DNA of 64,000 bases from a virus: the IMG/VR virus record IMGVR_UViG_3300017963_000197, positions 62,001 through 126,000 of that record. One strand, given 5' to 3'. Positions 5,254 through 9,210 of the stretch are shown one piece after another; position 1 is the stretch's first letter; every line of letters begins with the position of its first letter. The translations under genes and the position numbers were made by a program. Below the pieces are notes generated by a model. It worked only from the letters and a program-made list of their open reading frames with translations. It was not told the origin of the DNA and searched no databases.

Positions 5254-5823
5254 TCAAGTAATAATTACACCGCCTGGGCTGATTTCATAACCGATTTTCT
5301 TGCCGTCCTTGAGGAACGCCTGAGCCGACCGGGCCAGAAGGGCAGAGACCACAGCGATGAAGGGCAGATGCTCACCGTCCTCGCAAGTGGCGGCCCCGGC
5401 TGCCCCGTCGTCGATGACGAAATTCTCGGTCCAGACCACCCGGCCGAAAGCTCCGTCGGCGGCCAGCGCTCCGTGGAGACACGGGATCTCGGCCTCCTTG
5501 GCGAAACCCTGGACCACGCGCCGAGACTCTGGGTTGTCCAGGCAGTCGATGACCAGATCGGCACCGCCCAGAAGCTCCTTCTCGTTGTCGGCCGTCAGTT
5601 TGTGCGGGACCATGTTGAGCTTGATCCCGAATAGGAACTGCATTGCCTGGGCCAGGGACTGCGTCTTGTTCTTGCCGACGCCCGCCTTGCCATGGAACTG
5701 GCTCAACGTGTTCTTTTGCTCCACCCGGTCGAAATCGACGACCTTCATGGTCGCCTCGTTCCGTAGGAACAGTATCAAATGTGAGCCTAGAGCACCGGCA
5801 CCTATGATCGTGATGTTCTTCAT
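5254..5823 (-). CDS. E1/ThiF/MoeB-like adenylyltransferase
   Basis: The 189-aa protein is a minimal E1-type Rossmann domain: nucleotide motif IIGAGALGSHL (6-16), acidic strand VVDFDRVEQKNTLSQF (28-43), Lys about 51-53, DCLDN (93-97), and a candidate thioester Cys147 in AATCEDGEHLPF. These enzymes adenylate the C-terminal Gly of ubiquitin-like proteins. It is shorter than MoeB/ThiF (about 240) and lacks the CxxC zinc pairs. Last gene of an operon with a ubiquitin-like protein and a JAMM peptidase. Its 3' end carries the promoter-like element for the RNA cluster. Confidence 0.85.
   Translation of the reverse strand: MKNITIIGAGALGSHLILFLRNEATMKVVDFDRVEQKNTLSQFHGKAGVGKNKTQSLAQAMQFLFGIKLNMVPHKLTADNEKELLGGADLVIDCLDNPESRRVVQGFAKEAEIPCLHGALAADGAFGRVVWTENFVIDDGAAGAATCEDGEHLPFIAVVSALLARSAQAFLKDGKKIGYEISPGGVIIT
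5263..5271 (-). promoter_or_regulatory. GGTGTAATT promoter element for Y RNA/tRNA cluster
   Basis: The element lies inside the last codons of the E1-like gene, about 40 nt before the first Y RNA-like candidate and upstream of three tRNA-like RNAs and a tRNA on the same strand. Confidence 0.45.
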
Positions 5824-5853
5824 ACCCCTGTGTACGGTTGGCTGTTGAAAGAC

Positions 5854-6291
5854 CTAAGCATTTTCTTCTTGCCAGAGGGTTTTTAGCCGGTCCCGCTCCT
5901 TGGCTATGAAAGCAGCGATCTCTCTGGCATCACCCTGTTCAAAGCGACTAAGAGGCTCCCGTAGGAACTTGTAAAGGGCCTCTTCGTCTTCTTCTTCGGG
6001 CACCTTCTCTCGATCGAAGTCGTAATAGTAATAATGAGGGGCTTTGGTCAGAACCTGGGCCATCCAGTAGATCACGGCGTAGGCGTACGTCCGTTCACCG
6101 AAACTGATCCAGGACTTGTAGTCGAACCCGACGGGCCACTTCACCTTCTCGGAATACGCCATGTCCGTGGTCAGCCAAAGCGCCGACGCCTCCGGAAGGG
6201 GAGTCATGTACTTGAAGTGTTGTTCCAGAAAGTCGAACATCCGCTTCTGGTCTTTTTGGCTCCTGGCAGCAACGTAGATTGAGTAGCCCAT
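5854..6291 (-). CDS. hypothetical protein, 145 aa
   Basis: Starting at ATG 6291 (MGYSIYVAARSQKDQKRMF) the start overlaps the upstream stop (TAATG), implying translational coupling. The protein is rich in aromatic residues, with a central YYYYDFDREKVPEEEDEE acidic segment and a helical C-terminus. No known domain is recognised. Its place in the E1/Ubl/JAMM operon makes it a candidate substrate or accessory. Confidence 0.6.
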   Translation of the reverse strand: MGYSIYVAARSQKDQKRMFDFLEQHFKYMTPLPEASALWLTTDMAYSEKVKWPVGFDYKSWISFGERTYAYAVIYWMAQVLTKAPHYYYYDFDREKVPEEEDEEALYKFLREPLSRFEQGDAREIAAFIAKERDRLKTLWQEENA

Positions 6292-6551
6292 TATGGTCCC
6301 GACACACCTGTTCCTTTCTTCTTGTCCCACTTACGAAACTCGTTCCAGGAGTCGAAGTGGCGTCTCGTCACACCCTTGAAATACTTCCACATATCACTCG
6401 CTTTGAACTTGAACGGGCCGCTGACAGCGGCAGCACAATAACCACCGGAACAGGTGTATTCCCACTCGCCGGTCTCTTTATTCTCGACACTGCCGAATGT
6501 GTCGCCCCCGCAAACGGGACACGAAAACTCTGTCCTGTGTTGAGTGATCAT
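6291..6551 (-). CDS. zinc-ribbon protein, 86 aa
   Basis: CPVCGG near residue 11 and CSGGYC near residue 34 form a zinc ribbon. The C-terminal half is basic and aromatic (MWKYFKGVTRRHFDSWNEF). It overlaps both neighbours by a few nucleotides. Probably a nucleic-acid or protein-binding adaptor of the operon; the role is unknown. Confidence 0.6.
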   Translation of the reverse strand: MITQHRTEFSCPVCGGDTFGSVENKETGEWEYTCSGGYCAAAVSGPFKFKASDMWKYFKGVTRRHFDSWNEFRKWDKKKGTGVSGP

Positions 6552-6751
6552 GGTCTCCGACGATACCCCAGCGACTCCTGGGTGTGTGGTGTTAGCTCCA
6601 GGGCGATCTCGAAACTGGTACTAGAATGGGAAGAAGCGACTACAGCCACCTCAGGAGGGTTGGCCAGCTTCTTGGCTTGGTCGATGGCCTGAACAAGTTC
6701 GCGAACGGTTTGCTCCGTAATCTGAACAGTTGCGCCCTTCAGGGTAGTCAT
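6548..6751 (-). CDS. hypothetical small protein, 67 aa
   Basis: ATG 6751 overlaps the upstream stop (ATGA). An N-terminal helix (TEQTVRELVQAIDQAKKL) is followed by a polar, strand-like region ending LGYRRRP. I chose the internal ATG over a longer reading because of this overlap. Family not recognised. Confidence 0.5.
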   Translation of the reverse strand: MTTLKGATVQITEQTVRELVQAIDQAKKLANPPEVAVVASSHSSTSFEIALELTPHTQESLGYRRRP

Positions 6752-7591: not shown

Positions 7592-7595
7592 CGGC

Positions 7596-7862
7596 TCAAA
7601 CCCCGAAGGGCGTCTTCGGCCGAAGCTGAATCAGGTTGTAGGGACGTGCGTCGGTTGCGTTGAACCGATCCACGACGTAGTTACCCAGGTCGGGTGCCTG
7701 AGCCGGGATACCGGGAATGTCCCCGCCACGGATGGCTTCGGAGACCCACCCCTTCACGTCGTCGTCAGACGCAGCGAAGAGAACCGGGTCCGGAAGGTCC
7801 CCGTTCTGACCCCCGTAGGTGATGTTGACGCGAGCGTCGTTTTCGTTGATGTTGTCAGCCAT
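7596..7862 (-). CDS. ubiquitin-like protein candidate, 88 aa
   Basis: Size, strand/helix order (RVNITYGG hairpin, DDDVKGWVSEAIRGG helix, NYVVDRF, YNLIQLRPKTPFGV end) and a C-terminal strand finishing in Phe-Gly-Val suggest a beta-grasp ubiquitin-like fold. Its start overlaps the JAMM peptidase gene and an E1-like gene is in the same operon. A JAMM enzyme could remove the final Val to expose Gly for activation. The fold call rests mostly on context and the C-terminus. Confidence 0.6.
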   Translation of the reverse strand: MADNINENDARVNITYGGQNGDLPDPVLFAASDDDVKGWVSEAIRGGDIPGIPAQAPDLGNYVVDRFNATDARPYNLIQLRPKTPFGV

Positions 7863-8259
7863 GCTGCACCTCTCTTTCTAGCTCGTACCTCGATTCCTTT
7901 CGAAGTCTTGGTAGCCATATCGGCTGGTAATATTTGTTGAGATTGACGCGGTAGTCGTATTTGTCCGGGCCTTGCCAGACGATGTGAACGAGATGGGTGG
8001 AACTCGTGATCCACCAGATTATCCTCCGACCGAGAGCCGTCTCCACGCCGTTGAAGGTCGTAACGTCCTCGTAAGAGGGACCCGGCACCCCGGAGCCGGG
8101 GTGGCTGTGAGCAAATCCTAACACCCTGTCCCGGTTGTCCCAGATCACGTCCCAGAGCGTTCGGCTGTCTGGAAGGTAGGCCACGGACCGGTCCGTCGGG
8201 ATATGCCAGAACAGTGGCTTTCCCTCACGATCGACTAGAACTCCAGCTTCCACAGTCAT
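7855..8259 (-). CDS. JAMM/JAB-family metallopeptidase
   Basis: A canonical JAMM site is present: His51-Ser-His53-Pro, seven residues, Ser62, two residues, Asp65. The 134-aa length fits a single JAB/MPN domain as in prokaryotic deubiquitinase-like peptidases. These zinc enzymes process or remove ubiquitin-like proteins. The gene overlaps the ubiquitin-like gene by 8 nt. Phage tail-assembly JAB proteins usually carry an NlpC/P60 partner, which is absent, so a Ubl-processing role is more likely. Confidence 0.85.
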   Translation of the reverse strand: MTVEAGVLVDREGKPLFWHIPTDRSVAYLPDSRTLWDVIWDNRDRVLGFAHSHPGSGVPGPSYEDVTTFNGVETALGRRIIWWITSSTHLVHIVWQGPDKYDYRVNLNKYYQPIWLPRLRKESRYELEREVQHG

Positions 8260-8268
8260 TTCAATACC

Positions 8269-9210
8269 TTAGACGTGCCTGTAAACCACGAGTTGTCCCG
8301 TTCGCTCCGCTTCCAGGATAACGGACGGTAGGCTCTCAAGGGTCAGTAGGTCGTCTCCCTTCTCTCCGGTGTCATGATCTGTTAAACACACCCCAGAATC
8401 GATAATCCTAAGAGTTTTCTTGTCGCACGTACATTCGAACCGCCGCCGCTTGAGCCGGTACTTAACGATCATCTCGTTCTTGCGGTGCCCGGCACGTTGA
8501 TCCAGAAGCACAGCCCCGCCTACCGCTAAAGCGGCCTTTGCGGCCTCCTCGAAGTCCAGGAGAGCCATTTCCCGACGGCCAGCGCCGTCTCCCAGCTTCT
8601 CGACGATCTCGCGTCTACGGGCCTCCTTTTGACGCTCCTCTTCTTCCCGCTGGCGCTTTTCGGCAAGCTCCCGCCGACGCTTCTCTGCCTCCTTCCGTTG
8701 GAAGATCTCCATCCGGAAAGCGGCATCCAGGGCCGGGGAAACATCCTTGATGTCGGCCACGGAATCCTTGCCGTCCAGGTACGCCGTCAGAACGTCCATC
8801 TCCGGACCCAGCGGCATCTCTTGTTGCATGAAAAAGAGCGGGCCGTCCTCACACATACGCCCGGCAGAGACGTACACGAACCGGTCCAGAAACGGCTCGA
8901 TCAGGTGGACGCGCTCCGCGTTGGCCACGATATCCGCGATCTTCGGCTCAACTCGAACGTCACGCGGGACCAGCCTGTCTCCGACCAAATAACCCATGAC
9001 CTTACCCATGAGCAGATCAGTGTCAGAATCGTCGGCCTGTCGGAGAACACGCGCCCGCCGACCGTTCAGGGAGAAGACTACCCAACCGTGCTCATCCGGC
9101 AAACGGCCGTCGATGGTCCACTGTCGTGAACCCGACCGGAGAGACCTACCCCCGACCCATGGCGAAACCAGGGTTTCATCCTTAGTCTGTAGTAGGTCTC
9201 TCCAAGTCAT
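8269..9210 (-). CDS. coiled-coil protein heading the Ubl operon, 313 aa
   Basis: An N-terminal beta-rich region (residues 1-150) is followed by a highly charged coiled coil (about 168-210, Lys/Arg/Glu-rich). The C-terminal domain has two close Cys (FECTCDKKTLRI) and a third (GVCLTDHD). No family is recognised. As first gene of the E1/Ubl/JAMM operon it could be the target, scaffold or an E2-like partner; that is inference. The ATG lies 8 nt from a GGTGTAATA element without a ribosome site. Confidence 0.6.
   Translation of the reverse strand: MTWRDLLQTKDETLVSPWVGGRSLRSGSRQWTIDGRLPDEHGWVVFSLNGRRARVLRQADDSDTDLLMGKVMGYLVGDRLVPRDVRVEPKIADIVANAERVHLIEPFLDRFVYVSAGRMCEDGPLFFMQQEMPLGPEMDVLTAYLDGKDSVADIKDVSPALDAAFRMEIFQRKEAEKRRRELAEKRQREEEERQKEARRREIVEKLGDGAGRREMALLDFEEAAKAALAVGGAVLLDQRAGHRKNEMIVKYRLKRRRFECTCDKKTLRIIDSGVCLTDHDTGEKGDDLLTLESLPSVILEAERTGQLVVYRHV

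Follow-up and report, generated by a model that had tools for sequence, protein, structure and literature searches.

Most of what is known of bacterial ubiquitin-like (Ubl) conjugation comes from antiphage systems on the host side, among them Bil and the type II cyclic oligonucleotide-based antiphage signaling system (CBASS). The locus described here lies in a 64,000-nt window, positions 62,001-126,000 of the viral IMG/VR record IMGVR_UViG_3300017963_000197, and it brings together, as do the bacterial Ubl-conjugation operons (E1-E2-JAB-Ubl, type II CBASS Cap2/Cap3, and Bil/Bub), an E1-like enzyme, a JAMM peptidase, a predicted Ubl protein, and a putative E2 in one operon. It differs from these operons in its separate, minimal E1, in a Ubl end with a single Gly, and in an E2 candidate without detectable E2 homology, as well as in its carriage by jumbo phages and its coupling to a probable Ro60-like gene and structured RNAs. 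The PADLOC (2023) models for type II CBASS and Bil match the E1 alone and no further component.

A second point of reference is the rsr-yrlBA-rtcBA RNA-repair operon (PMC7790460), which in bacteria unites Ro60 (Rsr), Y RNAs, and RtcB. The phage locus likewise encodes a probable Ro60-like protein near tRNA-mimicking, Y-RNA-like RNAs, and RtcB was found in 10/15 phage records (G385-G398), few of them with a close copy (in four, RtcB lies 2.9, 11.5, 19, and 24 kb away from the module, in others farther), whereas in the phage module the Ro60-like gene is separated from the RNAs by the Ubl cassette. The lambdoid phage tail genes TAPI and TAPK, for which Ubl and JAB but no E1 or E2 have been described (PMC1779556), resemble this locus in that a phage encodes both a JAB peptidase and a Ubl with C-terminal Gly, but differ in their tail-assembly context and in a JAB that occurs with NlpC/P60. 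JAMM-like de-SAMPylases are present in Borg elements (PMC12660748), and a survey of jumbo phages (PMC7824862) mentions TROVE once, in a small subset, and a text search of it turned up no JAB, ThiF, or Ubl. The pairing of Ubl tagging with Ro60 and RNA was not found in the openly searchable literature, where the highest-ranked papers of a joint search had Ro60/TROVE terms or JAB/E1 terms but never the two together; an earlier mention elsewhere is possible. What appears to be new is the joining of a Ubl cassette to a Ro60-like gene and its RNAs in jumbo phages; the bacterial Ubl operons and the Ro60/Y-RNA operon were known separately.

We read the locus as a self-contained jumbo-phage cassette for Ubl modification that is genetically coupled to a phage Ro60/Y-RNA-like ribonucleoprotein (RNP), and we put the probability of this reading at roughly 0.6. 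It is based on the synteny of five genes, their invariant catalytic residues, the beta-grasp model and ragged tails of the Ubl, the alpha-beta4-GxCL-alpha domain of a 313-aa protein, and the similarity of the E1 to E1-E2 defence models, together with the alignment of the VWA protein to TROVE-VWA proteins, the position and covariation of an RNA motif, and the presence of RtcB in two-thirds of the records.

A five-gene module with conserved order in jumbo phages

The first-pass annotation had described ten minus-strand genes at 5254-9210, several of them with start/stop overlaps. These open reading frames (ORFs) are present, with spacings of -52 to +30 nt between neighbours, the -52 nt value being obtained with the longest (TTG-start) version of ORF 6548-6799. 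The conserved unit consists of the VWA/Ro60-like protein, the 313-aa protein, the JAMM peptidase, the Ubl, and the E1; it begins upstream of that interval, with the Ro60-like gene, and the structured RNAs behind the E1 gene (4693-5119) also lie outside it (Table 1).

Alignment-based scans of IMG/VR gave about 60 contigs of up to 619 kb. The complete set of five genes occurs in 48 loci on these jumbo-phage contigs (a few of the loci being near-duplicates), always in the order VWA - 313 - JAMM - Ubl - E1 and on one strand, and these loci differ greatly in sequence. The genes almost touch in one compact locus (L042), where they fit within 4.2 kb; in the other loci the intergenic distances vary by kilobases, and the order has therefore been maintained against gene turnover. 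Because order and strand are the same in 48 loci and the catalytic residues are invariant in 56-64 homologues, the five-gene module is real and not a product of chance.

Virus Rctr197k (KX853510) and other jumbo-phage contigs have the five genes in common with the window, and no nucleotide-level match of the window was found among phage records. Two contigs are identical to the window in the module region; since one of them measures 416,539 bp, the 173-kb record from which the window comes probably represents part of a jumbo-phage genome.

The zinc proteins (6291-6551 and 7373-7591), which the first-pass annotation had counted in the system, dropped out, having no match outside the contigs identical to the window. 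The ORFs 5854-6330, 6548-6799, 6748-7134, and 7134-7370 were without a match in other phages, and the small ORFs between Ubl and E1, matched solely in the identical contigs, were rejected as system parts. Membership in PRTRC was also rejected (PRTRC_ThiF scored 35.7 bits against a cut-off of 144.75, and the JAMM, Ubl, and 313-aa proteins had no PRTRC match), as was a bacterial origin of the module, for which a genome scan returned only five contigs of metagenome-assembled genomes (MAGs), possibly phage contigs, on which the 313-aa protein has a relative. Elsewhere in the window, matches to a DNA methyltransferase (phrog_67, E=1e-63) and to a virion structural protein showing repeated domain matches were seen at 36991-38484 and 46827-48293 (minus strand).

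Table 1. Features of the module and of the adjoining RNA array, in window coordinates
Feature	Position	Strand	Basis
Probable Ro60-like protein, 627 aa	9242..11125	-	Helical N-terminal region and C-terminal VWA domain with intact MIDAS
Putative E2-like protein, 313 aa	8269..9210	-	OB-like N-terminal part, coiled coil, alpha-beta4-GxCL-alpha domain
JAMM/JAB peptidase, 134 aa	7855..8259	-	Prok-JAB match; motif residues E4, H51, H53, S62, D65
Predicted Ubl modifier, 88 aa	7596..7862	-	AlphaFold2 beta-grasp order; Gly87 followed by one residue (Val)
E1-like ThiF-family adenylating enzyme, 189 aa	5254..5823	-	PF00899; catalytic-Cys candidate C147
Type-A tRNA-like RNA	4984..5119	-	T arm separated from anticodon arm by an insert; z=-2.4 for the fold of 4982-5118
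Type-B, YrlA-like circularly permuted tRNA-like RNA	4844..4983	-	Predicted fold; family covariation
Type-A tRNA-like RNA, acceptor pairing 7/7	4693..4828	-	Fold of 4690-4830, z=-4.1; pattern scan

E1-like enzyme, JAMM peptidase, and proposed Ubl precursor

The E1-like enzyme for which Cys147 had been proposed as the catalytic residue matches PF00899 with E=2.5e-22 (79.6 bits against a cut-off of 28.1), and C147, within TCEDGEHLPF, is invariant (56/56), which supports the proposal. The adenylation motifs GxGALGS, DxD, K53, and DCxDN are conserved, and C147 presumably corresponds in position to the catalytic Cys of ThiF/Uba4. The enzyme is without the CxxC zinc pairs known, together with the NLxRQ Arg, from MoeB. 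Its best matches in the defence libraries were E1-E2 proteins (PADLOC E1-E2 models, best 1.7e-12), to which hhalign aligned it with a probability of 97.6 across the E1 domain. In one other locus, a second, short ThiF-like fragment lies downstream of the E1 gene (L143:8674-8850).

The JAMM peptidase, called canonical from the first reading, does carry the complete motif, with each of its five residues (Table 1) kept in 58/58 homologues; by profile it is weak, the Prok-JAB match (E=2.6e-4, 21.3 bits) falling just below the Pfam cut-off of 25.

The 88-aa protein terminates in LRPKTPFGV, as had been noted, and its AlphaFold2 model, built with 62 sequences (pLDDT 91.5), has the beta-beta-alpha-beta-beta order of a beta-grasp fold (strands 9-16 and 19-22, helix 33-46, strands 62-67 and 76-82). 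Structural matches of the model are weak and mixed (Z up to 4.6), with ubiquitin-like, PB1, SUMO, and GB1 domains prominent and with a bacterial E1-E2-Ubl complex (8tz0_E, Z 4.0) among them; Foldseek alone gave no match at E <0.001. An end of the type R-P-K-x-x-F-G is present in 63/63 homologues, exactly RPKTPFG in 44, and Gly87 is kept in 62/63. The tail beyond the motif is unconserved and 0-61 residues long (one residue in 26 of the 63 proteins), being Cys-rich (CPNCGQVHE) or acidic in some. A near-invariant Gly followed by ragged, unconserved tails is the pattern expected of a precursor processed after that Gly, and we favour the view that the JAMM peptidase would trim the terminal Val of the Ubl. 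ATG8 and UFM1 are single-Gly Ubls (F-G in ATG8) exposed by removal of a short variable tail, in their case by cysteine proteases; the phage Ubl may resemble them in terminus and tail by analogy only. Tails that are Cys-rich and zinc-ribbon-like past the conserved Gly occur in the Ubl genes L047:7103-7423, L053:12307-12630, L060:11476-11853, and L056:10155-10538.

The same proteins could also serve sulfur transfer, as do ThiS/ThiF, MoaD/MoeB, Urm1/Uba4, and QbsE/QbsD, which likewise use a ThiF-type E1 and among which JAMM trimming is known for QbsE. The peptidase would then expose the Gly of the Ubl, the E1 would adenylate it, and a Ubl thiocarboxylate would deliver sulfur, for example in the thiolation of phage tRNAs. 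Such a role would suit the single-domain, ThiF-type build of the E1 and the 44 tRNA or tmRNA genes predicted in the window, and Ubl and JAB pairs are found in sulfur-transfer neighbourhoods as well (PMC1779556). It is weakened by the 15 phage records (up to 619 kb, some of them incomplete), in none of which a rhodanese or an above-cut-off match to ATP_bind_3 (tRNA-thiolase type) was found. The five-gene core, moreover, is without a sulfur-acceptor enzyme, and the phage module has extra conserved partners that the sulfur carriers do not have, one of them with an invariant cysteine, Cys275 of the 313-aa protein. We consider sulfur transfer improbable.

The 313-aa protein as an E2 candidate

The proposal that the 313-aa coiled-coil protein is the E2 was upheld in part: its predicted C-terminal domain and invariant cysteine speak for it, but E2 homology was not detected. 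The AlphaFold2 model (pLDDT 92.4) places the coiled coil at 159-207, between an N-terminal part that weakly resembles Mpa OB domains (Z up to 4.8) and a C-terminal domain of the form alpha-beta4-[D-x-G-x-C275-L]-alpha. C275 is kept in 64/64 homologues and C260 in 62/64, and the Leu next to C275 is invariant. The resulting G-[IV]-C-L string, followed by a helix bearing LESLP, recalls GxICL, the active-site segment of E2 enzymes. In topology the modelled domain is E2-like, its best UBC-related structural match being an RWD protein (Z 4.2), and action as an E2 is the leading but unproven assignment for this protein, with moderate support. Profile searches of the PDB with the 313-aa protein returned noise only. 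At L014:4634-5017, and also at L005:5085-5468, a second, N-terminal-only copy of 127 aa adjoins the full gene.

An arrangement with no dedicated E2 was weighed against this assignment. The E1 would transfer the Ubl directly, a route that archaeal SAMPs have been proposed to take, and the 313-aa protein would be an RNA-binding or scaffold subunit whose conserved cysteines, C260 and C275, have a structural or metal-binding role. The undetected E2 homology and the resemblance to Mpa OB domains would both agree with this, whereas the alpha-beta4-GxCL-alpha arrangement, with an invariant Cys that adjoins an invariant Leu and is followed by the LESLP helix, would be harder to account for. We hold direct transfer to be possible, though it is clearly the less probable of the two.

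A probable Ro60-like protein and tRNA-like RNAs

The 627-aa protein that opens the module matches VWA_2 with E=1.3e-7, and the metal-ion-dependent adhesion site (MIDAS) residues D434, S436, S438, T497, and D524 are kept in 66/66 of the VWA proteins. When its full-length profile was compared by hhalign with 12 bacterial TROVE-VWA proteins, it aligned over 230-526 with a probability of 93.8; the N-terminal part alone gave P=0.0022, compared with 0.12-0.35 for unrelated controls. These alignments suggest that the protein is probably, though not certainly, Ro60-like.

Directly behind the E1 gene, the window carries an array of tRNA-like RNAs that ARAGORN missed (Table 1). A scan for the pattern [CT][CTA]ACA[AT]G[CT] immediately 5' of a T arm yielded 80 distinct typed cases in the loci (57 of type A and 23 type-B candidates), and a closely similar pattern had 0 matches in 1.06 Mb of shuffled DNA. 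In 31/53 distinct E1 loci, the first motif is encoded in the same orientation as the E1 and no more than 1.5 kb 3' of its stop (median distance 252 nt), and the opposite strand of those 31 loci holds no match. Type A is a tRNA in which an insert carrying CUCG, a hairpin, and ACAAGC separates the anticodon arm from the T arm. Type B runs from the ACAAGC strand through the T arm, an acceptor-like hairpin, the D arm, and an anticodon-like arm to CUCG, with an outer helix enclosing the whole. The two types have both motifs in common and differ in the point at which the circle is opened, and so appear to be circularly permuted versions of a single fold.

Both forms show strong covariation. The type A alignment (46 of the 57 sequences, two of them from the window) has compensatory changes at 15/16 consensus pairs, and that of type B (22 of the 23 candidates) at 23/27 pairs. 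The selection pattern fixes the motif, the T arm, and the acceptor pairing and leaves the outer helix, the D arm, and the anticodon arm free, so that covariation in these three elements is independent of how the sequences were selected. The arm order of type B is that of the Rfam YrlA model, with an outer helix around the T arm and then the D arm. The exact YrlA label (RF02553) was rejected, at 21.8 bits against a gathering threshold of 69 and with a match that straddles two RNAs.

It could be argued that the VWA protein is an effector or assembly factor, for example in a MIDAS-Ubl pair such as MDN1-NLE1, and that the RNAs are products of the tRNA clusters, functionally unlinked to it. The weak matches of the Ubl model do include the NLE1 Ubl in complex with the MDN1 MIDAS (8ql1_B, Z 4.6), and large tRNA clusters surround the module in these phages. 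This alternative is nonetheless unlikely in our judgement, given that the RNAs share a motif outside the tRNA body, sit behind the E1 in its own orientation, and in one form take on a Y-RNA-like topology, and that the VWA protein aligns with TROVE-VWA proteins.

Other tRNA-like features were seen in the window. Beside the array, a tRNA-like match at 4595-4660 (minus strand; Rfam tRNA 47.5 bits, model positions 5-66) has no full acceptor stem and was missed by ARAGORN, whose 44 predictions extend over 2400-32236 (minus strand), and include, near 25997-26747, a pair of overlapping tmRNA predictions of which one is permuted. Three further long tRNA-like RNAs with a T-arm insert (29682-29824, 30036-30166, and 30327-30478, minus strand) lie inside the tRNA cluster, distant from the module, and a type-B candidate was found at 30149-30344.

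Weighing the coupled-cassette reading and its proposed mechanism

Several observations weigh against a complete conjugation cassette coupled to a Ro60-like RNP. For the E2 candidate, Pfam E2 families had no match in 10 members of the 313-aa family, hhalign of its C-terminal domain against Prok-E2_B, the sole E2 family so compared, gave a probability of 0.3, and fold searches (PDB, BFVD) returned nothing at E<0.001 or above Z 5.0; no E2 was listed in these fold searches, an absence from which we draw no exclusion. The window E1 reads NTLSQF, and aligned relatives have Ser or Ala, where NLxRQ has an Arg that is usual in the E1-like ThiF family, though not in every member. Trimming is not required everywhere, as 12/63 Ubls already terminate at the motif. 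On the RNP side, TROVE was not detected by Pfam, neither in the 173-kb record nor in the five MAGs in which the 313-aa protein has a relative; the hhalign result against TROVE-VWA proteins rests mainly on the VWA part; and in 22/53 loci no RNA motif was found up to a distance of 1.5 kb from the E1, the motif being upstream in a few.

Under the coupled-cassette reading, a four-step mechanism can be proposed. The JAMM peptidase would cleave the Ubl precursor behind the conserved Gly that ends R-P-K-x-x-F-G, as the unconserved tails suggest, and the ThiF-type E1, whose motifs are conserved, would adenylate this Gly and hold the Ubl as a thioester on Cys147. The 313-aa protein, as E2, would then take over the Ubl on Cys275, a step to which the modelled topology and the invariant Cys point, and the Ubl would finally be conjugated to proteins recruited by the Ro60-like protein and its tRNA-mimicking RNAs, a targeting role suggested by synteny and RNA structure. 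The JAMM peptidase may also undo the conjugation. In function the cassette may modify phage proteins or counter host defence, the two roles put forward in the first-pass annotation. Likely targets would be proteins that bind or attack tRNA or structured RNA, such as host nucleases, RNA-decay factors, or translation factors, or else the RNP itself. A more specific and rather speculative version is RNA-scaffolded tagging, in which tRNA-mimicking Y RNAs held by the Ro60-like protein would bait host proteins that attack or handle tRNA (e.g., anticodon nucleases), and these would be tagged by E1, E2, and Ubl and thereby inhibited, sequestered, or degraded.

The tRNA-like RNAs account for stretches that the tRNA finder had overlooked, and a single-Gly, ragged-tail Ubl together with a one-Cys E2 candidate yields directly testable predictions. 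A conserved and apparently complete Ubl cassette on the phage side would reverse the host-side antiphage picture of bacterial Ubl conjugation, and its synteny with a probable Ro60-like protein and Y-RNA-like RNAs would tie protein tagging to RNA surveillance outside eukaryotes.

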